Of a stretch of DNA of 64,000 bases, positions 29,447 through 43,257 are shown in pieces (positions within the stretch are counted from its first letter, which is position 1; the number at the start of each line of letters is the position of its first letter). Made by a program: the position numbers and the translations under genes. Location of the stretch: contig LDXJ01000058.1 of the NCBI GenBank assembly GCA_001029295.1, positions 1 to 64,000 of the forward strand. The letters are read 5' to 3'. The notes beneath the pieces are model-generated. The model did not search any database, was not told the DNA's origin, and saw only the letters and a list, made by a program, of their open reading frames with translations. Origin of the DNA: Peptococcaceae bacterium CEB3 (GTDB taxonomy: Bacteria > Bacillota > Desulfitobacteriia > Desulfitobacteriales > Desulfitobacteriaceae).

Positions 29447-30793
29447 ATGAACAGTAACGGTTTCGGACCCAGCGAAAAGAAACGTGACCGAAATAATCCT
29501 GCAACTGAGGCAACTGATAATCGTACAAATGGAAAAAGGCAGGCTGAACTGCCCAGAAACTACGGCCATTGGGCCACTCTGACCTTGGTCCTGGTGAGCG
29601 TCGGCTTCCTCTTCAGTTATCCTTATCGGGGCGAATTCTGGGGTGGGCTGATATCCACGGCCTGCCGCGCGGGGATGCTGGCCGGCCTCGCCGACTGGTT
29701 CGCGGTCACCGCCCTTTTCCGCCGCCCGCTCGGGATTCGCCCGGGCCGGATTTTGCGCACCGAAATCATTCCCCGCAATCGTGAAAGGCTTTTTGAGGCC
29801 TTGGCGGATATGGTGGAAAATGATCTTTTAAGCAAAAAAGCCCTTAAAGAACGCCTCGCCCACTACAACAGTGCCGCTTTTCTCCTCGATTATCTGTCCC
29901 AGCCCGAAGTTTTGGCGGAATTGAGCACCTTCCTCGCCGGCCTGATCCGGGACCTGACCGGTCAAACTGAGCCACAGGCCTTGATTAACTTTCTGGAAGA
30001 GTTAACCTGTGAAGAGTTCCTCTTCGAAGACCTTACGCCGCTCTTAGTTGAGGCTCTGAACTTATCGGAAAAAAAAGGCTACCTCGAGCTTACGGCAGCA
30101 TTCGCCAACCGTTCGCTGCTTGCTCTTGTCGACTCGCCCCAGTTGAAGCAAGCCCTGGCCCTCTGGTTACAGAAAGCCTACCAAACCTATGAAGCGAGAA
30201 ATACCGCCCGCAAACTGGTTGACACCTTCCTCCCTTCGGCCGGAGAGCTGGCGGCTGCTGTACAGGAACAGCTGCGCCTTTTTCTCGCGGGCCCCGAAGC
30301 GCAAGAACTCCTCATGTCTTGGCTGAGGGAATATGCCGGCGAACTGGTCACTTCCCGGGCCGCCAGGACCAATTTGAGTCAAACCCTCTTTGACCTTCTA
30401 CGCCACACCCCATTCCGGGCCCACGGGCCGGGAAATGGCGAAGTGTCTTCCGCTAAAATCGGGACTTTCCGGACGGACGGTGATACCCTCAAACTCTTGA
30501 TCGAGGACGTCATCCGGGAAATCGTCATCACCCGAAGAAACCCCAAGTGGGAAGCCAACCTGGACAGTTGGCTAAAAGATTCCCTCCTCCGCTTCATTGA
30601 CACCCAGCACGCCATCATCGGTCACATGGTGAGGCAAAATTTAAAACCACTGAGCAACGAACGATTGGTGGAACTCATAGAATCCCGGGCGGGCAATGAC
30701 CTGCAAATGATCCGGATCAACGGTTCCGTAGTCGGCAGTCTGGCCGGATCGCTCATCTATTTGGTCAACTTTCTAATCCAGCAAAAGTGGTGA
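29447..30793 (+). CDS. DUF445 family membrane protein, first of a tandem pair
   Basis: A 448-residue protein of the DUF445 (YheB/YjiN) family. It has an N-terminal membrane segment (about 40-57), the strongly conserved motif GMLAGLADWFAVTALFRRPLG (about 75-95, slightly shortened here in words: LADWFAVTALF), a long helical middle, and the C-terminal family end NDLQMIRINGSVVGSLAGSL with a last membrane segment. The function of DUF445 is not known; the layout predicts a long helical domain between two membrane anchors. The ATG at 29447 is behind GAGGTG. Its stop overlaps the region before the second DUF445 gene, so the two are co-translated and may form a heteromer. Confidence 0.88.
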   Translation: MNSNGFGPSEKKRDRNNPATEATDNRTNGKRQAELPRNYGHWATLTLVLVSVGFLFSYPYRGEFWGGLISTACRAGMLAGLADWFAVTALFRRPLGIRPGRILRTEIIPRNRERLFEALADMVENDLLSKKALKERLAHYNSAAFLLDYLSQPEVLAELSTFLAGLIRDLTGQTEPQALINFLEELTCEEFLFEDLTPLLVEALNLSEKKGYLELTAAFANRSLLALVDSPQLKQALALWLQKAYQTYEARNTARKLVDTFLPSAGELAAAVQEQLRLFLAGPEAQELLMSWLREYAGELVTSRAARTNLSQTLFDLLRHTPFRAHGPGNGEVSSAKIGTFRTDGDTLKLLIEDVIREIVITRRNPKWEANLDSWLKDSLLRFIDTQHAIIGHMVRQNLKPLSNERLVELIESRAGNDLQMIRINGSVVGSLAGSLIYLVNFLIQQKW

Positions 30794-30798
30794 ACAAG

Positions 30799-32220
30799 AT
30801 GAACTACCGTCATAAAGCGAACGTTACCCTCGCTGTCGTCTTTTTGCTTTTTGTGCTTTCCACAATTTTTAAACTCAACGAACCCAGGCTCTTTTCCTTG
30901 CGGCTTTTGAATTTTGTGCTCGAGGCTGCTCTGGTCGGCGGAATCGCTGATTGGTTCGCTGTGACGGCACTTTTTCAACGCCCTTTGGGCTGGCCTTTCC
31001 ATACCGCTCTCATCCCCAGAAACCGGGATAAAGTCATTCTCTCGGTGAGCCAGATGGTCGAAAACGATCTGCTCAGCCTGGAACTCATCCAAGAAAAACT
31101 TGCCCGAGTCTCTTTTACGGATGGGCTCAGAGCCTGGGTCGAACAAAATGGTGGCGTGGCCGCTCTGACCCGGCTCCTCTTCATTTATTTGGACGAAAGA
31201 AAAGATAAAATCCCCGCCAGGAGTGCCCAATTTATCGCTGCCAAAATCAAGCAGGAAATCGGCAGCGCTTCTCTGGACCGGGAACTTTATAGACTGAGCC
31301 GGATATTCCCGACCGGCGACGGCCTCGATTACGCCCTCGATCAACTGCGCGGGATCGTGAACGGACCTCTGGTAAGAGAAAATCTTTACCGGCTTCTGTT
31401 GGACCAAAAAGAAACCCGGGAGGCCGATTCCCGTTTCAACCGCTATCTGCTCGATTTCGTCCAAAAAATCGACGGACTCAACTTGAGAGAAGCCGCGACC
31501 GTCTTGCAAAAACAGTTGGGCCTGGCCCTCCGGGAACTGGAGAACCCCAGCCATCCCTTGCGGCAGCGCATCCTAGAGCTTTTAGCCACGGAAGCGGATA
31601 CCCAATCTCTGGGACAAACACTGGAACAGTGGAAAACGGAGGTCCTCTTAAAGCTGCCCTGGGAGGAAACCTTGTGCCAATTTTTGACCACGGTCCTCAG
31701 CCAGGTCATGAACCCGCCTAAAGCGCCGACAGCCCCAGCCGCAGCCCCCGAAAATTCAGCACCGACGGTTGCCGGAGACCCCGTGCCCCAGCCGAACCCG
31801 ATACATACCGCAGAGAACCCTGCGCGGAACATTCCGGAGGATAAGGTTCTGCCGGAGAAAAATTCCCCGCTCTTTATCTGGCTCAGTGAAGGAGCCAGCC
31901 GACTGTGGCAGGACTTTCTCAAGGATCAACCTTTACAAAACCGCCTAAACGCCTATATCCGTTCCACCTTGGGCCGGCTGGCGGCCGCCGAGCACCGCAT
32001 GATCGGCAGTATTGCCAGGAACACACTTGAGTCCTTAAGCGAAACCGACTTGAATTCTTTCATTGAGGGCAAAGCCGGGGAGGACCTGCAGTGGATCCGG
32101 ATCAACGGTTCCCTCGTGGGTGGTTTTGCCGGTTTGTTCCTTTTCTTCTTTTTGGATCTAATCTATCAACCTTGGCTTCTGCCTCTCTTTCATCGCCTAT
32201 TCCCTTTTCTGAACCACTGA
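30799..32220 (+). CDS. DUF445 family membrane protein, second of a tandem pair
   Basis: About 473 residues, same architecture as the preceding gene: N-terminal TM (about 10-26, VTLAVVFLLFVLSTIFKL), the motif GGIADWFAVTALFQRPLG, a helical middle, and the end GEDLQWIRINGSLVGGFAG with a C-terminal TM. It differs by a proline/alanine-rich insertion at about 310-350 (AAPENSAPTVAGDPVPQPNP). ATG 30799 has GGTG 6 nt upstream; an in-frame GTG at 30787 has no binding site. The N- and C-terminal signatures are well kept between the paralogues while the middle differs, suggesting an old duplication with distinct roles. Confidence 0.88.
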   Translation: MNYRHKANVTLAVVFLLFVLSTIFKLNEPRLFSLRLLNFVLEAALVGGIADWFAVTALFQRPLGWPFHTALIPRNRDKVILSVSQMVENDLLSLELIQEKLARVSFTDGLRAWVEQNGGVAALTRLLFIYLDERKDKIPARSAQFIAAKIKQEIGSASLDRELYRLSRIFPTGDGLDYALDQLRGIVNGPLVRENLYRLLLDQKETREADSRFNRYLLDFVQKIDGLNLREAATVLQKQLGLALRELENPSHPLRQRILELLATEADTQSLGQTLEQWKTEVLLKLPWEETLCQFLTTVLSQVMNPPKAPTAPAAAPENSAPTVAGDPVPQPNPIHTAENPARNIPEDKVLPEKNSPLFIWLSEGASRLWQDFLKDQPLQNRLNAYIRSTLGRLAAAEHRMIGSIARNTLESLSETDLNSFIEGKAGEDLQWIRINGSLVGGFAGLFLFFFLDLIYQPWLLPLFHRLFPFLNH

Positions 32221-32378
32221 TCAAGAGCAAGAGGGTAAAGGAACATTCAAATGCATCTTTGGCATCTTGTGCATCTTTCGCACCTCACACGCGCATACTA
32301 GCCGTATGAGACGCTCAAATGCGTACCCGCTTTTGGGAGCATTTGCTTGCTCAATCTTTTGGTGGAGGAGGGCTATCA

Positions 32379-32798
32379 GTGAAAGGTATACCCGAGTTTT
32401 TGGGGGAATCCTCCTTGTTGGGCGTGGTTCTGGCCGGAACGGCCATCGTAGTTCTGGCTCCCGTCCTTAAAAACGTCGTTAAGGGAGTTGCGGTGACCAC
32501 GGTGAAAGGGGCGATGTCCTTGGCGCAAGGAGGCTCAGCCTTAGCCAATAATGTCAAAGAAGGATGGGAAGATGTCGTCGCCAAAGCCCAACAACAGAAG
32601 GGACTCTCCAGACCGGACATGAACACAGTCCTCGGCGCCGGTGCCGGCGGCGCGGTGGGAGCCACCATCGGCGGAATGGCCGGTCCCGTTGGCGCTGCCG
32701 TGGGCGGCGGTTTGGGAGGAGCGGCCGGTGCGAGTGCGGGCAAAACATCGGATAAGCAGCATGACGCGGCAAGCCCAGCACACCCGGCAAACCCATGA
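32379..32798 (+). CDS. Small membrane protein with glycine-zipper hairpin
   Basis: 139 residues from a GTG at 32379 behind a strong GGAGGAGGG; an ATG 60 bp upstream has no site. Segment 1 (about 13-30, LLGVVLAGTAIVVLAPVLKN) leads into VVKGVAVTTVKGAMSLAQGG and an acidic helix (EGWEDVVAKAQ). Segment 2 (about 88-122) is a glycine-zipper hairpin (GAGAGGAVGATIGGMAGPVG then AAVGGGLGG), followed by a polar tail. The first part resembles the proteins at 37459-37710 and 42955-43257 and, by memory, DUF5132-type proteins that accompany unusual P-type ATPases. It is the third gene of the plus-strand unit and faces the ATPase gene across the terminator at 32910. Confidence 0.75.
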   Translation: MKGIPEFLGESSLLGVVLAGTAIVVLAPVLKNVVKGVAVTTVKGAMSLAQGGSALANNVKEGWEDVVAKAQQQKGLSRPDMNTVLGAGAGGAVGATIGGMAGPVGAAVGGGLGGAAGASAGKTSDKQHDAASPAHPANP

Positions 32799-33061: not shown

Positions 33062-35488
33062 CTACGGTACCGGTACTACCGGCGGCAGGCTCCCTCCGTA
33101 TAGCAGTGGGGCATGCCTGACCTCCCCGACCCCGCCGGACACTTCCTCCGCCCAAGTTTTGCCGTAGGTATTGGCGATCACCGCTATGACCCCGATATTT
33201 CCCACGACTGAAGCGCCCACAGTCGTTAGAATGCCTGCCGCGCCCAGTCCCAAACCCGTGACATTCAGTCCGAAAGCAATGCTTAAATTTTGATTAATCC
33301 GCTCCTTTAGCCGTTGTCCCAAGTAAATCACTTCCGCCACTCTTTGCGGTTCGCGCTGCGGAATCACGATCCCCGCCACCTTGGCGGCGGAATCCACTCC
33401 CATGCAGCCGACGGCAATTCCCAACTCCGCCTCCGCCATGGCCGGAGCATCATCCAGCCCGTCGCCCGCCACCGCGACTTTGAACCCTTCTCCTTTGAGA
33501 GAGCGGACCAGAGCGGCCTTGTCTTCCGGGGTCAATTCCCCATAGTATTCAGTGATTCCCAGTTCATCCGCCGCCCGCTTTGCCGCCTCCCTCGTGTCCC
33601 TCGTCACGAGGACAATCTTCCCGATTCCGCCGGCGCGCAGGGCCGTGATGAGTTGGGCGCTTTGGGGCGAGATTTCCTCATGTACCGCCAGCAGAGCGCG
33701 AACTTGGCCGTTAACCGCTATAAAAACGGGATCAAGGCCCAAATGCTGATGGCGCCGGGCTTTGGCTTCAACCTTGGCCAGGTCCACTTTCTCCCTCTCC
33801 ATAAAGCGAAAGTTCCCGATCAGGACTTCTTCGTCTTTGAAGCGAGCCTTGACCCCAAAGCCGGAAATTTCCTCACTCTTCTCGGGCGCAGGCATGGGGG
33901 TGCCGTGCAGGGTCACGGCTTGGGCACGCAAAGCCTGGGCGACGGGATGACCTGCTCTCCTTTCGGCCGCGGCTGCAAGGCGAATGATTCCCGCTTTTGT
34001 GTACTCCCTGCCAATCACCGTGATCTCGCGAATTTCCGCCTTTTCCTCGGTGAGCGTGCCGGTTTTGTCGAGCACCAAGGCATTAATATCGGCCGCCGTC
34101 AGTAAGTGCTTTTCATCTCTCACATATATTCCGCGATCCAGGGCCTGGCCGACCGCCACCCCGGCCGCCGTAGGCAGGGCTAAACCAGCCGCGGCGGGAG
34201 CTCCGGCGAATAGGACAGCCAAAGTACGTTCGGCATCCCGGGTGAGAAGGAAGACACCCCCGGCCAGCAGGAGCGAGAACAGGACTATTCGGTCCATGCG
34301 CTCTTGGTACACCCGGTCGGCCAAGCTTTTGCGCCGTGCCGCCGAGCGAATCATAGCTCCGATCCGCGTCGACCGCCCGGTCCGCTCCACCCGGATGCGC
34401 AGATGTCCTTGCAGTACCTCCGAGCCCGCGAGCACAGGGTATTCCCGCCCTTTCCAGACAGGCCGGGGAATACCGGTTAATTGACTCTCACCCACGTCTG
34501 CCTCTCCGCCCGCGACCCGGCCGTCCACAGGAATAGTCTCACCCTGATGCACCGCAATCAGGTCGCCCGCAGCCAGGCGCCTGGTCGGCACCGGTACTTC
34601 GACCCCTTGGGCGATCAGCCAAGACCTTTGCGGCAAGATTCCGACCTGACGAATAATCTGCCGGGCCTTGGCCTGGTCTATCCCCATGGAAAGCTTGGAA
34701 AGGTGTACTAGTAAAGTCAAAAGCAGTCCCCCGATACTTTCCTGCAGCACAAGCAAAGTGAAGGAGAGCGCATTAATAATCGCGTCATAAGGTAAGCGTT
34801 TTGCCTGTTGCGGATGTTTCAACCCCCAGAGAAAAAGCGGATAAGCCGCAATCAGACCTACGACAGTGGCTCCGTCCGCGACCGCTTCCGAACCCACCAA
34901 GGGCGAGCGACCCAGAATTTGGCGCTTAAGTAAAAGCAGCACGAGAGTAAACCCGGTGAAAATCGTCTTCAGTGAACGCCGGGTTACACTGGGGCTTGTC
35001 AAGACTCCCCGCAGGTCCTCTCTTCCCCGCGGCGCCGCTTCGGGAGTGTTTACCCGTTCCGGAGCCTGCTCGCGCCCTGCCCGCTCTTCGTCGGCCAGAC
35101 GGCGCTGCCAACCGCTGCGCCGTCCTTCCTCAACGTGCCGGTCGCCGCCCCGCCAGCCCTGCTCAAGCATTCTGTGTTCTCTTGGAGCGGACCATGTCCG
35201 GACCGCTTCCCGAACGCCACGGCCTGTTTCTTGCTCGGGTTCGGAAAATCGCGCCTTCCTTTTTTCTTCGACACTCAGGATTACCCCCGGCTCATCCCAG
35301 TACTGGGAACTATACTCGACCAAAATAGTCCCCGTATGAACATTGACCCGAGCCGCCGAAATTCCGGGGGAACTCGCGAAATGACTGGCGATGGCCTCCG
35401 CCAACACAGGATCTCCCCTCAAGCCCGGCACTCTGAGCCGGATTCTCCCGGGAAGGGAGTGTACCGCTTTATTTCTTCGAGTCGCCAT
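33062..35488 (-). CDS. P1B-like P-type ATPase with HMA2-type N terminus and APA in TM4
   Basis: About 808 residues. Residues ~5-65 form an HMA_2-like ferredoxin fold without the CxxC metal motif (HSLPGRIRLRVPGLRG, then VNVHTGTILVEYSS), followed by a charged arginine/glutamate-rich linker (about 80-160). The ATPase core has LTGIP (actuator TGE variant), DKTGTLTEEKAEI near residue 472, AGHPVAQAL in the nucleotide domain and GDGLDDAPAM near 674. In TM4, where metal pumps carry CPC, SPC or CPH, the sequence is FAGAPAAAGLALPTA near 427, so no thiol or imidazole ligand is present. The catalytic residues are complete, so it should hydrolyse ATP. The transported ion is unknown. I prefer the ATG at 35488; the frame is open to 35689 with no good binding site. 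Confidence 0.85.
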   Translation of the reverse strand: MATRRNKAVHSLPGRIRLRVPGLRGDPVLAEAIASHFASSPGISAARVNVHTGTILVEYSSQYWDEPGVILSVEEKRKARFSEPEQETGRGVREAVRTWSAPREHRMLEQGWRGGDRHVEEGRRSGWQRRLADEERAGREQAPERVNTPEAAPRGREDLRGVLTSPSVTRRSLKTIFTGFTLVLLLLKRQILGRSPLVGSEAVADGATVVGLIAAYPLFLWGLKHPQQAKRLPYDAIINALSFTLLVLQESIGGLLLTLLVHLSKLSMGIDQAKARQIIRQVGILPQRSWLIAQGVEVPVPTRRLAAGDLIAVHQGETIPVDGRVAGGEADVGESQLTGIPRPVWKGREYPVLAGSEVLQGHLRIRVERTGRSTRIGAMIRSAARRKSLADRVYQERMDRIVLFSLLLAGGVFLLTRDAERTLAVLFAGAPAAAGLALPTAAGVAVGQALDRGIYVRDEKHLLTAADINALVLDKTGTLTEEKAEIREITVIGREYTKAGIIRLAAAAERRAGHPVAQALRAQAVTLHGTPMPAPEKSEEISGFGVKARFKDEEVLIGNFRFMEREKVDLAKVEAKARRHQHLGLDPVFIAVNGQVRALLAVHEEISPQSAQLITALRAGGIGKIVLVTRDTREAAKRAADELGITEYYGELTPEDKAALVRSLKGEGFKVAVAGDGLDDAPAMAEAELGIAVGCMGVDSAAKVAGIVIPQREPQRVAEVIYLGQRLKERINQNLSIAFGLNVTGLGLGAAGILTTVGASVVGNIGVIAVIANTYGKTWAEEVSGGVGEVRHAPLLYGGSLPPVVPVP

Positions 35489-35688
35489 ACGCACCCCCAA
35501 GATCGACGTTTTCAGATCGAAGTTTTCAACTGCGCTTAATTTTTCTGCAGTCAATTCGTCGGACAGCCAGCACTTGCCCTCTTTCCGGAGGACGATACGG
35601 ATGCTTTGACAGTCCTTAACAGATTCTCCACTCACAAACAACAATATGTAAATCGTCGGGCGGAAGGTTCTGCCAACTCCGGAGTGCA

Positions 35689-35756
35689 TTCGTTCAGCTT
35701 AAGCTGAACATCACTTTAGTGTCCTGTGGACTCGATCGCCGAACCGCAAGCTTTCA
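35689..35756 (+). repeat. Dispersed hairpin element, third copy
   Basis: CGTTCAGC-TTAA-GCTGAACATCAC followed by TTTAGTGTCCTGTGGACTCG and ATCGCCGAACCG matches the copies at 201-300 over about 60 bp. It lies in the gap between the ATPase gene and the terminator of the next minus-strand gene. Confidence 0.75.
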
Positions 35757-35875: not shown

Positions 35876-36646
35876 TTAGGCTTCTCGGGCCAGTAACTCG
35901 GGTTCGTATGCGGACAGGGTTGCCTCCAGAACTTCCGTTTTGGCCGCAAACCGACGCTCAATAACTCTGTCATGCAGGGAGTAAAGGATCTGGGCCGCCC
36001 CGCGGCTCGCTTCGCGTTTCAGCCGCTCTTCCAGGGCCAAGAGAGCGCCCTCTCGACGCTGTTCCAGCCCCCGGGTCAATTCTTCTTTCTCCCACCGCGA
36101 ATCAATACCCAAAGAAGCGACCATTTTTTCCCCCGCCCCCGCTTGTTCGGCCAGTGCCGCCAAAAGGGGATGGGGAATCAGGCGATGTGCCGCTTCTCCC
36201 CACACTCTGCGGCTCCAATATTCAGCCTGCCCCGCCCAAAAAACGCTTCCCTCTTTTTCCGCCCGCCAGCCTTCTATTAGGCCTGACACATCCCCAAGAA
36301 AATCTTCCACCATTCGTTCTTGCCAGAGATCCGACGCAAGGTGCTCCTGTGCCAGCAGGCTTATGGCCTGTTCCCCGTCCATGTCGAAACGCCGCCCGAT
36401 CCGTTCCAGCAAACCTGCCTGCAGGGTTTGACGCAAATCCGCCAATTCTTCCATCAAAGCGGGAAGATCAAAACGGGATCCGGCGGCTGCGTGCCTGCGA
36501 CAGACTTCAAACCATCGCCCAATCTCATCTGTTAAGAAAGACAGCGTTTCGTCAACCGCCTCGACGGTCTCCCATTCCGCCCGTTGACGGCGGATTTCGT
36601 GCGCATAAAGAAGAACTTCTTTTTTGAATATCTCTTCTCTAACCAT
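35876..36646 (-). CDS. Cytoplasmic helical/coiled-coil protein of unknown function
   Basis: 256 residues, no signal peptide or membrane segment. Nearly all of it is predicted amphipathic helix rich in E, R, A, L and W, with long heptad-like stretches at the end (WEKEELTRGLEQRREGALLA, LEERLKREASRGAAQ). I do not recognise a family. The ATG at 36646 follows GGGGTGAAAAG. It lies 159 bp downstream of the glycine-zipper gene and ends at its own terminator (35794-35810). Context with two ATPases and small membrane proteins suggests a structural or adaptor role, which is inference only. Confidence 0.7.
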   Translation of the reverse strand: MVREEIFKKEVLLYAHEIRRQRAEWETVEAVDETLSFLTDEIGRWFEVCRRHAAAGSRFDLPALMEELADLRQTLQAGLLERIGRRFDMDGEQAISLLAQEHLASDLWQERMVEDFLGDVSGLIEGWRAEKEGSVFWAGQAEYWSRRVWGEAAHRLIPHPLLAALAEQAGAGEKMVASLGIDSRWEKEELTRGLEQRREGALLALEERLKREASRGAAQILYSLHDRVIERRFAAKTEVLEATLSAYEPELLAREA

Positions 36647-36805: not shown

Positions 36806-37150
36806 TTACGTGTGGTTTTGCATGGGGTTACGTTCAGAGATTCCCTGAGGACTCCGCTCCGGAAACAGAGCCGAACCCGCACCCTGCCCCAGGGCTTGGC
36901 CCAGACGGTCCCCCACAATTCCTCCGAGAATCGTTCCGATGACGGCCCCGGCTCCCGGCAAAACGGCCGAGCCAAGGTAGGCCCCATACTCAAATCCTGC
37001 CATTAGACCCAAGGCTGAAGTCAGGTCGGAAGTCGTGTGTACGGCATACTCCCGGTCATCCAGACTGCCGGACCGGTGTGCCCCGACATCCCGCCACAGA
37101 GCGAAGCTCGCGGAAATAGCCCCGGCCCACAATGTTCCCTTACTAAACAC
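36806..37150 (-). CDS. Small membrane protein with glycine-zipper hairpin
   Basis: 114 residues from a GTG at 37150 behind AAAGGGGAAA. A short N-terminal hydrophobic stretch (GTLWAGAISASFALWRDVG) is followed by a charged loop and a long glycine-patterned hydrophobic hairpin at about 45-95 (LGLMAGFEYGAYLGSAVLPG, AGAVIGTILGGIVGDRLGQ, ALGQGAGSALF). G-x3-G spacing repeats through it, typical of glycine-zipper proteins that pack or oligomerise in membranes. The polar tail has no known motif. It comes 25 bp after the helical protein gene at 37176-37472 and belongs to the same minus-strand operon. Confidence 0.75.
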   Translation of the reverse strand: MFSKGTLWAGAISASFALWRDVGAHRSGSLDDREYAVHTTSDLTSALGLMAGFEYGAYLGSAVLPGAGAVIGTILGGIVGDRLGQALGQGAGSALFPERSPQGISERNPMQNHT

Positions 37151-37175: not shown

Positions 37176-37472
37176 CTAACGGCGCAAGCGCGGAAAAGAA
37201 ATTAAGTTGAAAAGATTCACCCCGTATTGCTTCCCTTTTTCCCGCACACTGCCCAAAAAGTCCCCCAAGAAAAGTTCCCAGGCGCGGGCAAGCTCCTTCT
37301 GCGCAGCCGGTTCCCGGACGATCATCCGCACACTCTGCTCAATCGCTTGCTCCAGATGGGAAAGCGCTTCTTTTAAATGCTCATCAATATCCGGCAGCTC
37401 TTCCACAGCATCCCTTCTCCCGACTTTATTCTTTCCCCAGACCCGTTCAAACCAAGTTTCAGCGAGCGCCAA
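37176..37472 (-). CDS. Small soluble helical protein of unknown function
   Basis: 98 residues. An acidic N-terminal part (VEELPDIDEHLKEALSHLEQ), then a helical stretch (AIEQSVRMIVREPAAQKELA, RAWELFLGDFLGSVREKGKQ) and a basic end (LISFPRLRR). No membrane segment. I do not recognise a family. The annotated start is a TTG at 37472 inside the end of the upstream gene (14-nt overlap), and its ribosome site is poor, so the true start may differ. It is flanked by small membrane-protein genes in the ATPase operon. Confidence 0.6.
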   Translation of the reverse strand: MALAETWFERVWGKNKVGRRDAVEELPDIDEHLKEALSHLEQAIEQSVRMIVREPAAQKELARAWELFLGDFLGSVREKGKQYGVNLFNLISFPRLRR

Positions 37473-37710
37473 TCTCCCGATCCACTTCCTTTTTCAGACG
37501 TTCAAATTGCGCTTCGGCAACGATGTCTTCCGCTTCTTCCTTCGCCAATTCAAAGGTCGTTCTGGCCGCAGCGACTACCCCGACCACTCCCCGCAAACCC
37601 AAAAGAACGAGCGGTTTGAGGGCATCCCTGAGCACCGGCAACAGGGCAGGGGCCGCTACGACCAAGGCTGTCCCTGTGATCAAATCCGTTTTATCCAGCT
37701 CCTTCAACAT
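37459..37710 (-). CDS. Small membrane protein, DUF5132-like
   Basis: About 83 residues from the ATG at 37710, which has GAGGAGGT 8 nt upstream. One hydrophobic segment at about 9-42 (LITGTALVVAAPALLPVLRD then ALKPLVLLGLRGVVGVVAAA), followed by an acidic amphipathic helix (FELAKEEAEDIVAEAQFERL). The pattern hydrophobic-AP-x-L-K-P-x-hydrophobic-acidic helix matches my memory of DUF5132 proteins and resembles the genes at 32379 and 42955. The frame is open to an ATG at 37863 that overlaps the ATPase stop codon (ATGA), so a longer 134-residue form by coupled translation is possible. Confidence 0.72.
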   Translation of the reverse strand: MLKELDKTDLITGTALVVAAPALLPVLRDALKPLVLLGLRGVVGVVAAARTTFELAKEEAEDIVAEAQFERLKKEVDREIGAR

Positions 37711-37859
37711 AGCTGAAGACCTCCTCTGAGTTTCTTCCGTACTTACCTTCCCCTGAATTTCCTTGGCACTTCTACCCTCGTCTGAGTATCTTTCAACTCC
37801 CACCCTCCTTGTAAGTTTCTCATGCACCTTGCCCTCCTTCTCTCCATTGACCGACGGGT

Positions 37860-40800
37860 TCATTTCCCGGCCATCAAGGTGGGAATCCGGCCGGTGAAAT
37901 CTCCTCTTCCGGCTTTGGGCAGCACTCGGAGCTCACCCCCGGCTTGGCCGCCGGACGGCTCGTCCTCCGCCCCGGCCATGAGACTGAGAAACGGCTGGGC
38001 CAAGAGGGATACCGTTCCCGCCAAGAGGAAAATCAGGAGCCAGTGCCGGACCTGCAAGGGAGCCGTGTGGAAGAAACCGGCCACAGGAGGGATGTAAATG
38101 GCGCCAAGCAAAGCCAAGAATGAAGCGACCAAACTCCCGACCAAATAACGGTCCTTGACCGACTCCCGCACCCCACCGGAGGAACCTTCCTGATGCCAGG
38201 AAAAGGTCTGGCCCAACTGTCCCAACACCAAAGTGGTGAAAGCCACGGTTTGGGCAACGGCCAACGGTGCCCCGGCGCTCAGAGTCAGCCCGAACAGTCC
38301 CAGAGCGCCGGCCCCCAGGAGGAGCCCCCGCGTAACGACTTTGCGGTAGAGACTCCTGTCAACAATATCCTGGCGTTTTGTGTACTGCTTCGTATTGCCG
38401 GGATTCACCGCCAGGATCATGGCGGGAATCGCGTCGGTGAGGAGATTCATAAGCAAAATCTGAATCGGCACCAGGGGCATGGGCAAGCCTGCGATGACCG
38501 CCGTGGCCGTGACCAAGATCTCAGCCAGGTTCCCGGTCAGCAGACAGCCAATGGCTCTGCGCATGTTGGCAATAATCGTGCGTCCTTCTTTCACCCCTTC
38601 CAGAATGGCGCCGAAGTGATCTTTCTTGAGCACCATGTCTGCCGTAGCCTTAGTAACCTCCGTCCCCGTACCGCCCATGGCGATGCCGGTATTGGACTGT
38701 TTAATGGCTGGGGTATCATTCACTCCGTCTCCCGTCATGGCCACAATGTGGCCCGCTTTCTGGTAAGCCTTCACGATCCTCAGCTTATGTTCGGGAGTCA
38801 CCCGGGCAAAGATGGCCACCTGTTCCACCACTTGGGCCAGTTCCCGATCGGACAGTCCATCCAGTTCCTGACCGGTCATGACCCGGCTGCCGTCCCCACC
38901 CAAACCCAAGTCCCTGGCGATAGCCAAGGCGGTCACCGGGTGGTCCCCCGTAATCATCACGGGTTTAACCCCGAGGGCATAAGCCTCGCGAATGCTCGCT
39001 TCCACCTCCGGCTTGGCAGGATCCATCATGCCAGCCAATCCAACATAGATCAGCTCGTCGTCGACCCCGGGACCGGGCTCTTGCGTATCTACCCATTCCG
39101 TGGGGCAGTAGGCAAAGCCCAAAACCCGCAGGGCATCACTGGCCAGCTTTTCGTTCTGCCGGTAAATGAGTTCTTTTTTGGCCTCCGTCATGGGATAGAT
39201 GGCCCCATCCTCCTGATAATGACTGCAACGCCGGAGCACGGTTTCCACAGAACCTTTGCAGAACACAAAACAGTCCGTGTCCTGACGCGTGTCCCGGCAG
39301 ACAACACTCATGGTACCCGCCTTGGAATCGAACGGCACCTCGTGAACCCGGTGCCAATGTCCCATAGTTTCCGCGCGCACTCCCGCTTTGGCGGCAAGTG
39401 TGAGCAGTGCCCCTTCTGTCGGGTCCCCTCTGACGGCCCATCTTTCTCCTTCCCGCTCTAACCGGCTGTTATTGCAAAGCAAGGCAATGGTGGTCAAGCG
39501 TTCAAGTTCCGGACTGTATGACTGGGCCGGCTCCGACTGAGGCAGACACACGATCTCTCCGGTCGGTTCATACCCTTCTCCGGTCACTTTCCAAGTACGG
39601 TTAGCCGTCACGATCCGGGTAACCGTCATTTCATTCTTGGTCAGAGTTCCGGTCTTATCGGTGCAGATAACCGTGGTCCTGCCCAACGTCTCCAGAGCGG
39701 AGAGTTTGCGGATGAGGGCATGATGCTTGGCCATCCGATAGATTCCGGCGCTGAGCGCGATGGTGATGGTCACCGGAAGCCCTTCCGGAACGGCCGAAGC
39801 GGCCAGGGTGATAGAAGTCGTAATCATCTCTGTCAGGGGCCTTCCCCGCAGGAGCCCCACCACGAAGACCAGTGCGCCGGCTAAGGCGGCTCCCTTGACA
39901 AACATTTTGCTGATACCCGTCACTTTATCGTGCAAAGGGGTGCTCACGACATCCTGGTTTTTCATCAAAGACATAAGATGTCCGATCTCAGTTTGCATTC
40001 CCGTTCCGACGACCACGCCGTTTCCCTTGCCCCGCGTGACGTCCGTACCCATAAATAACATGTTCGTCTGTTCTGCCAGCGGACAGCCATCCTGAAGGCC
40101 CTGAGGATTCTTGCCTACCGGCAGAGATTCCCCCGAAAGTGCCGATTCATTAACTTCCAAATTCCAGGACTGGAGAAGGCGCAAATCCGCGGGCACCCGA
40201 TCACCGGCTTCCAACCTCACGATATCCCCCGGCACCAATTCGGTGCCTACGACGACCGCCTCCTGACCGCCGCGCACAACCCGGCAGGAAGGGGGCTGGA
40301 ATTGGTTGAGCGCATCGATAACGCGCTCCGCCTTGCGTTCCTGCAGGGTGCCGATGGCCGCATTGGCCAGCAGAATTGCCCCCATAGCCAAACCGTCGAA
40401 GACGGCCCCCGTGACTAGAGCTAAGACCGATGTCCCCAAAACGATCAAGGTGGTGAACTCGGTAAACTGGGCTAGATAGGATACGAGCCAGGGCCGGGTT
40501 TTTTTAGGCTCCAGATGGTTCGGCCCGTACTCTTTGCGCAGCACCTCCACCTGTTGGGGCGAGAGACCCCGGTCTTCGCTGACTGCAAAACGGTGCAAGA
40601 CTTCATCCGTACTCGTGCAATACCAGCGCCCCGCCTGATTCTTGGGCAACCGTGCCGCCTTGGGCTCTTTCGCATCTCTTGCCGGTACGCTCTCTCCACT
40701 CAAAGTTTGGCCGGCCCGCTTGCTGTCGGCCATGAAGGCCAGCGTCAGCGCATCGGTCAGAAGCTTGGCCATCGGTGCCGTTATAACGCCTAAAGCCGCC

Positions 40801-42689
40801 AAACCCATCCCCGCATAATTCCACAACCTGGAAAAACGGAAGTGCCGGGTGATGACCGCGTTCATAGATCGGGCGTAGGCCAGAGAACGGTTGAAGGCCG
40901 AAATTTTCTCCGGCGCTGCCAAGGGCACTCCCGCCAAGGACCCTTCCTCATCTTGCCCGATGAAAAAGACCTCTTCACCCCGTTCGCGTGCAACTGCCAA
41001 CATCTCCCAAGTATCGGAAGTTGTGCCAGGCAGAATTCCGTCGATTCCGCACTCTCTCAACTCCTCTTCACTGAGGCCCGAAGTGTTATTTAGTACCCCA
41101 GTCTTGACCCCTATACTCCGCCAGTAGTTTAAACCTTGGGCAAGTTCCGGCGGAGTTTCACCTTTGTACCTCGTCAAGACGCCAAGATAATTAGAATCCC
41201 GGGCCAGGCAGAAGACTTCATGCCCAGTACGTTGAAGCCTGCGAATCTCCACCAGATGGGAATCACAATCCACCCCGTTTTCCTGCAAGTATTCCAGGCT
41301 GCCAAGGAGAACTTCGGAACCCCGGATTGTTCCTTTCACTCCGTTTATCCCGCGTTCGACTTTGAAAGCGGTTCGGATCGTCCCTCCGAACCTTGATGCC
41401 CTGCTTAAAACCTCCTCCAGCCAAGGATGCTGCGCCCGCTTCATCAAGGATGCCGCCAAACGCCACACTTCGTCCTCATTTTCCGGATCAGCCGAACAGC
41501 GTATTTCTTCCTCGCTCCCTTGTCGCAGAAGTGCGCTGTCTGTCAGCACAACTTGTTTAACCTGAGCAAGCTGCGCCAGTGACATGCCGTCCGGAATAAA
41601 GCAACCCTTTTCCTTGGCGGTCCACTGCGCCTGTTCCCAGGTATAGCGGGCAGGAACCGTAGCCACTCGCGGACTCCCCGCGAGCAGAACCCCCAACCCT
41701 CGTGACGGTTGTCCGCTCAGCACCGCGGCCCCTGCGGCAAGGGCAAGATGAGGTTTGCCAACCCGGCCGGCGTAAGCTTGAATTTCCGGGCTGTTCTGCC
41801 ACTCCTCCGGGAACCCGGCCCTTCCGCTTTGCTCCACTTGCCGGTGGAGGTACTGGATGAGCGCAATTCCCGCCAGAACCACGAGGTTTTCCCGGGCCAA
41901 GGCTAAACCAAGAGTCACCGCTCCCAGCAAAGCCTCTCCGCGCCAGCCGTCTGCCCCAGACAGAGGCGTACGGGGCCGTGGTCCCCGGCTTGCAATGTCA
42001 GGCCGGCCTCCTCCGGAAAACGACGGCACATCCTCCGCAGAGACCGGCGGGACAGAACCCGACCCCGACAGGTCCTCAACCTGCCTGCGCGCCGGCGGAT
42101 AGTCGCGCAAAACAGCCACCAAAGCCGCCAAGTAGAACAAAGCGGGGACCTCGGCCAAAGCGGATTTACCCATAAACACCCGTTTTACGGCCAGAATCCC
42201 CAACCCGGCAACGGAGAGCACCAGAGCCGGATAGCGGCCGACCCCCGCAAGGCCGCCCCAGGCCAGGCTCATCCCGGCCTGGCCTATCCCTGCCTGGCCT
42301 GGGGCTGGCGAACCCGCGGCGGCAGCGGTCTGATCCCAGTTTCGGTTAAAAGCGCGGTAACCCATTTCCGCCCCGCATACACTTGCGTTCGGGCCCCGCT
42401 CCCGGCCATCGATCCGCCGGATTTCAGAAGGCGTCGTCTCCAGCTTCTCGATCATGACCAGAAGATCACCGAGACCGATCCGTTCCTCATCGAAAAGAAT
42501 AAGCATCCGGCCCGTATGGGCACTGGGGGAGATTTCCTCCACCCCCGGACAAATGCTGAGAGTCTCCAGCAAGAGCCGAACCAAGGCCAAATTGCCTTTC
42601 AGCCCTTGTACGCCGAGGCGGATTCTCCCCGGCAAAACCCGAATAAATCTTCCTTCTTCCTTTGCTTCGGCCAGACGCCCCAGACCCAT
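37860..42689 (-). CDS. Giant fused P-type ATPase: dead P1B-like half plus active P2-like pump (CtpI-like)
   Basis: About 1,609 residues. (1) HMA_2-like N-terminal fold at about 12-80 (RVLPGRIRLGVQGLKG, no CxxC). (2) A whole but inactive P1B-like ATPase at about 130-670: DKTGT is replaced by TDSALLRQG near 381, TM4 reads AGSPRVATVP near 333, HP is kept in AQHPWLEE, and GDGxND is lost (GQDEEGSLAG). (3) From about 696 a full P2-type cation ATPase: N-terminal LSPQQVEVLRKEYGPNHLE, GESLPVGK, TM4 [27 protein letters not shown] near 1009 and TGDGVNDTPAIKQ. This is the architecture of mycobacterial CtpI/CtpH. The ATG at 42689 has GGAGG 5 nt upstream; a GTG at 42716 opens the frame. It is the first gene of the minus-strand cluster. 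Confidence 0.88.
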   Translation of the reverse strand: MGLGRLAEAKEEGRFIRVLPGRIRLGVQGLKGNLALVRLLLETLSICPGVEEISPSAHTGRMLILFDEERIGLGDLLVMIEKLETTPSEIRRIDGRERGPNASVCGAEMGYRAFNRNWDQTAAAAGSPAPGQAGIGQAGMSLAWGGLAGVGRYPALVLSVAGLGILAVKRVFMGKSALAEVPALFYLAALVAVLRDYPPARRQVEDLSGSGSVPPVSAEDVPSFSGGGRPDIASRGPRPRTPLSGADGWRGEALLGAVTLGLALARENLVVLAGIALIQYLHRQVEQSGRAGFPEEWQNSPEIQAYAGRVGKPHLALAAGAAVLSGQPSRGLGVLLAGSPRVATVPARYTWEQAQWTAKEKGCFIPDGMSLAQLAQVKQVVLTDSALLRQGSEEEIRCSADPENEDEVWRLAASLMKRAQHPWLEEVLSRASRFGGTIRTAFKVERGINGVKGTIRGSEVLLGSLEYLQENGVDCDSHLVEIRRLQRTGHEVFCLARDSNYLGVLTRYKGETPPELAQGLNYWRSIGVKTGVLNNTSGLSEEELRECGIDGILPGTTSDTWEMLAVARERGEEVFFIGQDEEGSLAGVPLAAPEKISAFNRSLAYARSMNAVITRHFRFSRLWNYAGMGLAALGVITAPMAKLLTDALTLAFMADSKRAGQTLSGESVPARDAKEPKAARLPKNQAGRWYCTSTDEVLHRFAVSEDRGLSPQQVEVLRKEYGPNHLEPKKTRPWLVSYLAQFTEFTTLIVLGTSVLALVTGAVFDGLAMGAILLANAAIGTLQERKAERVIDALNQFQPPSCRVVRGGQEAVVVGTELVPGDIVRLEAGDRVPADLRLLQSWNLEVNESALSGESLPVGKNPQGLQDGCPLAEQTNMLFMGTDVTRGKGNGVVVGTGMQTEIGHLMSLMKNQDVVSTPLHDKVTGISKMFVKGAALAGALVFVVGLLRGRPLTEMITTSITLAASAVPEGLPVTITIALSAGIYRMAKHHALIRKLSALETLGRTTVICTDKTGTLTKNEMTVTRIVTANRTWKVTGEGYEPTGEIVCLPQSEPAQSYSPELERLTTIALLCNNSRLEREGERWAVRGDPTEGALLTLAAKAGVRAETMGHWHRVHEVPFDSKAGTMSVVCRDTRQDTDCFVFCKGSVETVLRRCSHYQEDGAIYPMTEAKKELIYRQNEKLASDALRVLGFAYCPTEWVDTQEPGPGVDDELIYVGLAGMMDPAKPEVEASIREAYALGVKPVMITGDHPVTALAIARDLGLGGDGSRVMTGQELDGLSDRELAQVVEQVAIFARVTPEHKLRIVKAYQKAGHIVAMTGDGVNDTPAIKQSNTGIAMGGTGTEVTKATADMVLKKDHFGAILEGVKEGRTIIANMRRAIGCLLTGNLAEILVTATAVIAGLPMPLVPIQILLMNLLTDAIPAMILAVNPGNTKQYTKRQDIVDRSLYRKVVTRGLLLGAGALGLFGLTLSAGAPLAVAQTVAFTTLVLGQLGQTFSWHQEGSSGGVRESVKDRYLVGSLVASFLALLGAIYIPPVAGFFHTAPLQVRHWLLIFLLAGTVSLLAQPFLSLMAGAEDEPSGGQAGGELRVLPKAGRGDFTGRIPTLMAGK

Positions 42690-42740
42690 AAATTCCTCCC
42701 GCATCCGGTAGACCACTCCATCCCGCTTTATCTTAGCCCC

Positions 42741-42954: not shown

Positions 42955-43257
42955 ATGCTGGATTTTATCCGAAAATCTCCGCTGGGGTTTATTCTAACAG
43001 CAACCGCCTTAGTGCTGGTGGCGTCTCCTAAAGCCCGGGAAGCTGCCCGGAACTGGCTGGTGAAGGGGACGGCGACCATCCTCGATCTCGTCGACGAAAG
43101 CAAAGCCCCCGCAGCCACCCGCACCGCCGGGCAAACCAATGTGTACGAGATGGGAGCCTACCCATCCAAGGCAGAGCCCACCGCTGAGCAGGCTTCGCCC
43201 GGCCCCGGTCGTCCGGCACCCTCGCGGCCCGACCCGGATAATACCTCTCCGTCCTAA
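42955..43257 (+). CDS. Small membrane protein, related to the DUF5132-like members of the cluster
   Basis: 100 residues. One membrane segment at about 8-25 (SPLGFILTATALVLVASPKA), an amphipathic stretch (REAARNWLVKGTATILDLVD) and a disordered proline-rich tail (SPGPGRPAPSRPDPDNTSPS). The hydrophobic-SP/AP-basic-WLVKG pattern parallels the segment in the proteins at 32379 (VVLAPVLKNVVKGVA) and 37459 (VAAPALLPVLRDALKPLV). The ATG at 42955 is behind GAGGGAGG. It is divergent from the giant ATPase gene with a 265-bp shared promoter region, and ends at the terminator at 43353-43383. Confidence 0.75.
   Translation: MLDFIRKSPLGFILTATALVLVASPKAREAARNWLVKGTATILDLVDESKAPAATRTAGQTNVYEMGAYPSKAEPTAEQASPGPGRPAPSRPDPDNTSPS

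Follow-up and report, generated by a model that had tools for sequence, protein, structure and literature searches.

Introduction

In FUPA24 proteins, as Chan et al. reportedly stated in 2010, a type I ATPase makes up the N-terminal part, and the type II part alone has remained functional. Members of this P-type ATPase family are described as being of about twofold length, with an unusually large N-terminal segment, the functional motifs being confined to the C-terminal part (PMC3573892). The passages of a further study that name the mycobacterial members CtpH and CtpI call them uncharacterised and isolated in the P-type ATPase tree (PMC10654040). A second described system with bearing on the present locus is CtpC, a P1B6-like pump which, according to the sections that deal with it, is stabilised and clustered by the small protein PacL1, the Glu/Ala repeats of PacL1 contacting the N-terminal end of CtpC (PMC9374683). 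In a library of open-licence papers, our search found nothing on pseudo-ATPase fusions, on DUF5132, or on FUPA24 beyond PMC3573892, the other paper listed being about CtpE; nor did it find the gene cassette, the separate pseudo-pump or the series of decay stages presented here. The locus lies in the window, a stretch of 64,000 nucleotides. To our knowledge, few pseudo-enzyme subunits of ion pumps have been described.

Results

A dead P1B half and a live P2A half in one chain

The gene for a fused pseudo-P1B/P2A ATPase of the FUPA24 type occupies positions 37860..42689 on the minus strand and encodes 1609 aa from an ATG at 42689. This position, given as the end of the gene in the earlier note, is also the likelier start, with GGAGG ahead of it; an alternative GTG at 42716 would give an open reading frame of 1618 aa (37860-42716, minus strand). 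Judged by its motifs, the single chain consists of an N-terminal HMA_2 and P1B-type half and, C-terminal to it, a P2A half in which no catalytic motif is missing, and the central claim of the earlier note, a dead P1B half joined to a live P2 pump, is borne out by the motif loss in the one and the intact motifs of the other. The layout is that of FUPA24 (TC 3.A.3.24, mycobacterial CtpH/CtpI), which is already known and which the window protein joins; the resemblance to CtpI/CtpH had been proposed before, and both the twofold length and the restriction of functional motifs to the C-terminal part agree with the description of FUPA24. The closest named relative comes from Acididesulfobacillus acetoxydans, of the same genus as the window genome, which supports the Firmicute (Bacillota) setting given earlier. 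The A. acetoxydans fusion (L095, 10001-15061) has 1686 aa, and its inter-half linker carries a long additional stretch rich in Gly, Ala, Ser and Pro.

The live P2A-type half spans residues 700-1575 (37992..40619, minus strand; Pfam and NCBIfam, with matches to LMCA1 and SPCA1), and Pfam finds a complete P2 layout over residues 701-1572. Its DKTGT (residues 1020-1024; 39645..39659, minus strand) and GDGVND (residues 1329-1334; 38715..38732, minus strand) were located by motif search and alignment and, together with intact SGES, PEGL and TGD, uphold the statement that the second half retains every P2 catalytic motif. The same set (TGES/SGES, PEGL, DKTGT, TGD and GDGxND) is present in the C half of all 26 full-length fused chains. 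Among solved structures, LMCA1 and SPCA1 match the C half best (E about 1e-152). The ion-site helices read PEGL in M4, NLAE in M5 and NLLTD in M6, the last two keeping the residues of the SERCA Ca2+ sites, and the alignment places a Q in M8 where LMCA1 has Arg and SERCA has Glu908 (SERCA numbering). The profile TIGR01522, for PMR1-type Ca2+ ATPases, scores 608.7 bits, under its cut-off of 798.3, so the transported ion is one that we infer: the C half most resembles Ca2+ pumps (LMCA1, SPCA/PMR1, SERCA), and its probable substrate for export is a divalent cation, e.g. Ca2+ or Mn2+.

The N half (all coordinates on the minus strand) opens with an HMA_2 ferredoxin-like domain with a PGRIR motif at residues 27-92 (42441..42638; Pfam PF19991, with strands and helices in the model). 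The HMA_2-like start proposed earlier could thus be located, but its Pfam score is 27.4 bits on the whole protein (cut-off 30) versus 31.3 bits in a six-frame scan. The domain is followed by the MA-MB transmembrane pair (residues 161-212; 42081..42236; from the model, dN/dS 0.19) and by M1-M2 with a conserved REN motif (residues 256-299; 41820..41951; from model and alignment, dN/dS 0.13). At the M2-to-M3 stretch (41790..41819), sequence alignment and model agree that the actuator (A) domain is missing, the stretch measuring 34 aa in the window protein versus 131 aa in the fusion of genome G147; this loss of the whole A domain was absent from the earlier note. Although a fragment alignment put 61 residues of the window N half into A-domain columns, we take these for a misaligned long linker, since the other alignments and the model place none there. 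Beyond it lie pseudo P/N (HAD and nucleotide) domains at residues 371-600 (40917..41606), recognized by blastp, profile, model and structure search, in which the alignment shows TDSAL in place of DKTGT at the former phosphorylation site (residues 392-396; 41529..41543). The two motif losses named previously both hold, TDSALLRQ occupying the position of DKTGT and GQDEEG that of GDGxND, and the HP motif said to persist is present as QHPW. Of the features that define an active P1B pump (DKTGT, a TGE-bearing A domain and GDGxND), the N half has none.

Metal-binding motifs have gone as well. The CPC site is aligned with SPR or NPR in most fused chains, and in M5-M6 of the window protein (40701..40913; model and motif inspection) the P1B6-type HN motif of M6 has become TD, so that the CPx and HN motifs are both lost from its N half. 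The intact relatives at L022, L031, L059 and L077 retain HN in M6. FezB, the ATPase of the ferrosome system, is of the P1B6 type, and the HN of these intact HMA_2 P1B relatives is a P1B6 feature; small membrane proteins also accompany related HMA_2 P1Bs. No fez gene was identified, and even with both points in its favour, we consider it very improbable that the cluster is an iron-storage system of the ferrosome (fez-like) kind.

The N half has the predicted fold of a P1B ATPase

The earlier note had named one observation that would overturn its reading, namely an N half without a P-type ATPase fold, and the comparisons turned out otherwise. By blastp the N half matches the neighbouring HMA_2 ATPase with 24% identity over 428 aa (E 1e-10), and a profile of six N-half sequences matches CopA in the PDB (E 1.7e-12). 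The AlphaFold model (mean pLDDT 73.9, pTM 0.56) contains an HMA_2 domain of ferredoxin-like topology, eight helices of membrane type and paired P and N domains, with no A domain. A Foldseek search with this model returned CopA and ZntA as top matches (E 1e-13 to 1e-14), and P1B ATPases also rank first in VIA-align 2 (Z 17.1 over 419 residues, rmsd 10.8); the N domain alone gives Z 16.6 over 115 residues with an rmsd of 2.4. By sequence and predicted fold, the N half is a P-type ATPase.

Catalytic loss, as judged from aligned motifs, is family-wide. We aligned 29 fused chains, 26 full length and 3 partial, after the removal of three unrelated long frames. DKTGT is lost from 28 of the 29 N halves, the same 28 in which a stretch of 32-44 aa stands at the place of the A domain; the exception is G147. 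When three further fusions are added, not one of 32 fused N halves combines TGE, DKTGT and GDGxND. The pseudo-N domain of three Bacillaceae chains (L117, L118 and L120) is shorter still, in keeping with ongoing erosion.

The fusion belongs to a conserved cassette

A scan of named genomes returned 27 loci, comprising 26 fusions and one ordinary P1B, a 625-aa Mesorhizobium protein (L121) kept outside the fusion counts. A full-length fused frame is present in 23 of the 26, and the like layout of so many loci makes the fusion neither a chance event nor an assembly artefact. Hosts are Acididesulfobacillus, Desulfosporosinus, Paenibacillus, Cohnella, Aneurinibacillus, Gordonibacillus, Marinithermofilum, Melghirimyces, Metabacillus, Ectobacillus and metagenome-assembled Bacillota. 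Two plasmid-borne matches that were inspected as candidate fusions, from Arthrobacter and Azospirillum, proved to be single P2 pumps of about 900-930 aa, and among the matches listed for the full chain against plasmids, at least 5000, none covered 80% of the query. A search with the N half of the G119 fusion led to P1B-type ATPases of Rhodococcus and Pseudonocardia that have a DUF1490 gene upstream and are not fusions.

Directly downstream of the fusion in the window lies a gene for a DUF5132 small membrane protein (37459..37863, minus strand; Pfam 27.2 bits, cut-off 25). Of the 26 fusion loci, 23 have the DUF5132 gene, and at the other three the contig ends first. By inspection, these proteins consist of a membrane-helix region and then a Glu/Ala-rich helix. 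Next come a protein of the ~75-98-aa family (P98; 37176..37472, minus strand; 22 of 26 fusion loci, and 13 of the 17 loci annotated from the HMA_2 scan described below) and a glycine-zipper small membrane protein (36806..37150, minus strand; 22.5 bits against a cut-off of 25; 22 of 26). A 256-aa protein that belongs to no Pfam family (35876..36646, minus strand) is conserved in Acididesulfobacillus and Desulfosporosinus, and a divergently transcribed gene for a 100-aa membrane protein (42955..43257, plus strand) is present at 25 of the 26 fusion loci. At the far end of the cluster Pfam and locus comparison identify a DUF5132-like/glycine-zipper protein (32319..32798, plus strand). The cluster edge (29447-32220, plus strand) holds two consecutive related genes of 448 and 477 aa, presumably akin to DUF445 membrane proteins; both have conserved counterparts in A. 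acetoxydans, and the counterpart there of the first shares 28.6% identity with the window's second.

The window DUF5132 protein passes the Pfam cut-off for DUF5132 only, and not for DUF1490 or DUF6110. The small protein at L132 matches DUF5132, DUF6110 and DUF1490, all under cut-off, and the DUF6110 scores are 18.6 bits at L132 and 16.6 bits at L137 versus a cut-off of 26; the link between DUF5132 and PacL thus consists of sub-threshold Pfam matches, and for small single-helix proteins such matches are weak and partly overlapping.

The dead half is retained under selection

Between the window and A. acetoxydans, a single genome pair, dN/dS is 0.12-0.20 in the helices of the dead half, 0.28 in HMA_2, in the pseudo P/N domains and in the N half overall, and 0.11 in the live half, the pseudo P/N domains (0.28) being more loosely constrained than the pump half (0.11). 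The membrane helices of the dead half are therefore maintained under purifying selection. Across 25 chains the invariant positions include PGR.R, K178, G183, L273/R275/E276 in M2 and LL...P in M4. Constrained helices and invariant residues point to a structural role of the N half in the membrane and not to catalysis.

The best-kept parts of the N half are the helices and the PGRxR region of HMA_2. That combination would also suit an autoinhibitory or metal-sensing domain, in which HMA_2 binds a transition metal and thereby releases or activates the P2 pump, one ion gating another; moreover, 12 of the treed chains join HMA_2 directly to a P2 pump with no P1B module, which indicates that HMA_2 alone can serve such a pump. 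The PGRxR motif, however, lacks a pair of Cys residues that could bind a metal, and neither CPC nor HN, the metal motifs of the membrane part, survives in the N half, so that we regard metal sensing as unlikely.

The neighbouring HMA_2 ATPase is an unlikely general partner

A second HMA2-type ATPase had been noted beside the fusion. It is there, as an HMA_2 P1B-like ATPase (33062..35689, minus strand; Pfam), but four small genes intervene and its motifs are abnormal: DKTGT is kept, TGE has become TGI and CPC has become APA. Three Desulfosporosinus orthologues have DKVPS or DKIPS in place of DKTGT, and with the altered motifs of the window copy this suggests that the neighbour, too, is losing pump function.

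The dead half and this neighbour share strand and cluster in Acididesulfobacillus and Desulfosporosinus, and a separate HMA_2 P1B adjoins the P2 pump in 9 of the 17 annotated loci, as would suit a heterodimer between the dead half and the ATPase at 33062-35689. Yet the neighbour accompanies the fusion in only 3 of 26 loci, all of Acididesulfobacillus or Desulfosporosinus. A fourth Desulfosporosinus genome, G327, also encodes the ATPase, on a contig other than that of the fusion, which breaks off early. At none of the 16 fusion loci outside these two genera whose downstream sequence reaches at least 7.0 kb does the neighbour occur, an absence that speaks against a general partnership. The alignment proposed earlier as a test of common origin finds a match between the two, but in the P1B tree the window N half is not sister to the neighbour; this position and the low identity rule out a recent copy of the neighbour as its source. 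Linkage and tree together exclude the heterodimer as a general rule and weaken it as the earlier note had put it, and we judge such pairing with the neighbour distinctly improbable.

Split and intermediate forms

From an HMA_2 scan of 398 genomes of the phylum, long frames were followed up at 15 loci which, with those of G147 and G119, made up 17 annotated loci. Further fusions, of 1528-1636 aa, were found in G119, G203, G108, G021 and G147; G068, with its P1B and P2 parts in two overlapping frames, was left outside both the fused count and the P1B tree. HMA_2-P2 pumps of 955-1082 aa have no P1B module, and at the loci of five of them (G057, G218, G479, G104 and G385) no such module was found within the stretch examined, indicating that a dead half is not universally needed.

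Genome G237 encodes the two parts separately. Its cassette consists of a free 613-aa pseudo-P1B, which lacks the A domain and has CRGELLT for DKTGT, a DUF5132 protein, an HMA_2-P2 pump of 1005 aa and a 96-aa protein of the ~75-aa family. Compared with the fused G108 protein, the free dead pump shares 46.2% identity with the N half over 630 aa, the P2 parts share 46.6% over 871 aa, and the pseudo-P1Bs group together at 100/100 in the P1B tree. G237 and G108 are thus a fusion/fission pair, which favours a functional link of the dead half to the pump. A separate 590-aa P1B that has lost the N domain and DKTGT occurs in G231, clustered at L127 (3535-11399) with two divergent HMA_2-P2 pumps of 1026 and 1012 aa.

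Other chains have lost less. The P1B half of the G147 fusion keeps DKTGT and GDG and has TGS for TGE; its HMA_2 sits in a separate overlapping upstream frame, perhaps through an error in sequencing or assembly. At this locus (L076, 4980-10015) DKTGT and GDGxND occur in both halves of the fused P1B-P2 frame. In G021 DKTGT is kept, TGA stands for TGE and GDS for GDG, and the N domain is shortened. Separate P1B partners in G203, G119 and G409 keep TGE, DKTGT and GDG/GEG. At L137, L138 and L139 (G120, G085 and G429) the gene for a 955-aa HMA_2-P2 pump forms a divergent pair with that for an HMA_2 P1B in which CPC and DKTGT are present and RGKV replaces TGES.

These forms can be arranged as stepwise decay, from G147 (DKTGT and GDG kept) through the partial G021 to G119, G203, G108 and the window clade (dead, no A domain) and then to L117, L118 and L120 with their trimmed pseudo-N domain, as would be expected if the N half were a decaying remnant, partnerless and kept only as an upstream membrane segment for the folding of the P2 half. 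Mere decay is hard to reconcile with dN/dS values of 0.12-0.20 in its helices, and the free dead protein of G237 cannot serve as a leader for a pump; we hold the remnant to be an improbable account.

In the P2 tree the window-type fusions form one clade of 10 chains (100/100), and in the P1B tree the halves of six window-type chains do so as well (100/100). On the P2 tree the fused state requires four changes, at least two of them forced by well-supported branches, so that repeated fusion or fission is likely, a reading weakened by long branches and composition changes. A single fusion event accordingly finds no support in that tree, subject to the same weakness.

Discussion

The reading to which we give about even chances is that the protein is a single-chain complex in which a P2A pump for divalent cations has the dead half as its membrane-embedded docking or regulatory subunit in cis. 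The N half would descend from a P1B6-like HMA_2 pump and, having lost its A domain, phosphorylation site, GDGxND hinge motif and metal motifs, would neither transport nor hydrolyse ATP; the C-terminal P2A half alone would pump, exporting a divalent cation. The HMA_2 domain and the eight-helix bundle would hold the live pump beside the co-encoded DUF5132, ~75-aa and glycine-zipper proteins. By analogy, the model could be PacL1, whose binding to the N-terminal end of CtpC stabilises and clusters that pump, and the PacL-like DUF5132 protein is perhaps the docking client of the dead half. We propose a docking or regulatory subunit in cis because HMA_2 and the helix bundle, to which such a partner would bind, are retained in the dead half. 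The earlier suggestion that the dead half regulates the pump or binds a partner is therefore compatible with the data and is the one we favour, with its mechanism, including contact between the two halves and docking of the small proteins, a matter of inference. An AlphaFold prediction of the packing of N and C halves, run on a 1200-aa piece of the Ectobacillus protein at L118, gave a pTM of 0.49 with 174 of 1200 residues at pLDDT below 50, and a model of such low confidence shows no interface between them.

With somewhat less assurance, we extend this docking or regulatory role beyond the window clade. HMA_2-P2 pumps with PacL-like small proteins may use dead P1B pseudo-pumps as subunits dedicated to them, whether in trans (the 613-aa protein of G237 and the 590-aa protein of G231) or in cis (FUPA24), several lineages having arrived there separately and by different losses: of the A domain, the N domain, TGE or DKTGT. 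If this is true, CtpH and CtpI are one-chain pump-plus-subunit complexes and not odd pumps. In a Bacillota family with fixed small partner genes, and with a split homologue whose parts can be expressed one at a time, the role of the dead half can be tested directly.

Among known systems, the C half resembles LMCA1 (lmo0841), SPCA1 and SERCA in PEGL of M4, N..E of M5 and N..TD of M6; it differs in sitting behind a 690-aa dead pump and in its Q at the LMCA1 Arg position of M8. With CtpC and PacL1 (DUF1490) the locus shares an N-terminal domain of metal-binding type, an eight-helix P1B membrane part and a co-encoded small membrane protein with a Glu/Ala-rich helix. CtpC, however, is an active single pump, whereas the P1B part of the window protein is dead and has a P2 pump fused to it. 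With FUPA24 the window protein shares the roughly twofold length (1609-1618 aa, the P2 module beginning at about residue 700) and an N-terminal segment that is the relic of a type I (P1B) ATPase. In contrast to CtpH and CtpI, with which the comparison is by description, the window family belongs to Bacillota and is accompanied by the DUF5132, ~75-aa and glycine-zipper cassette.
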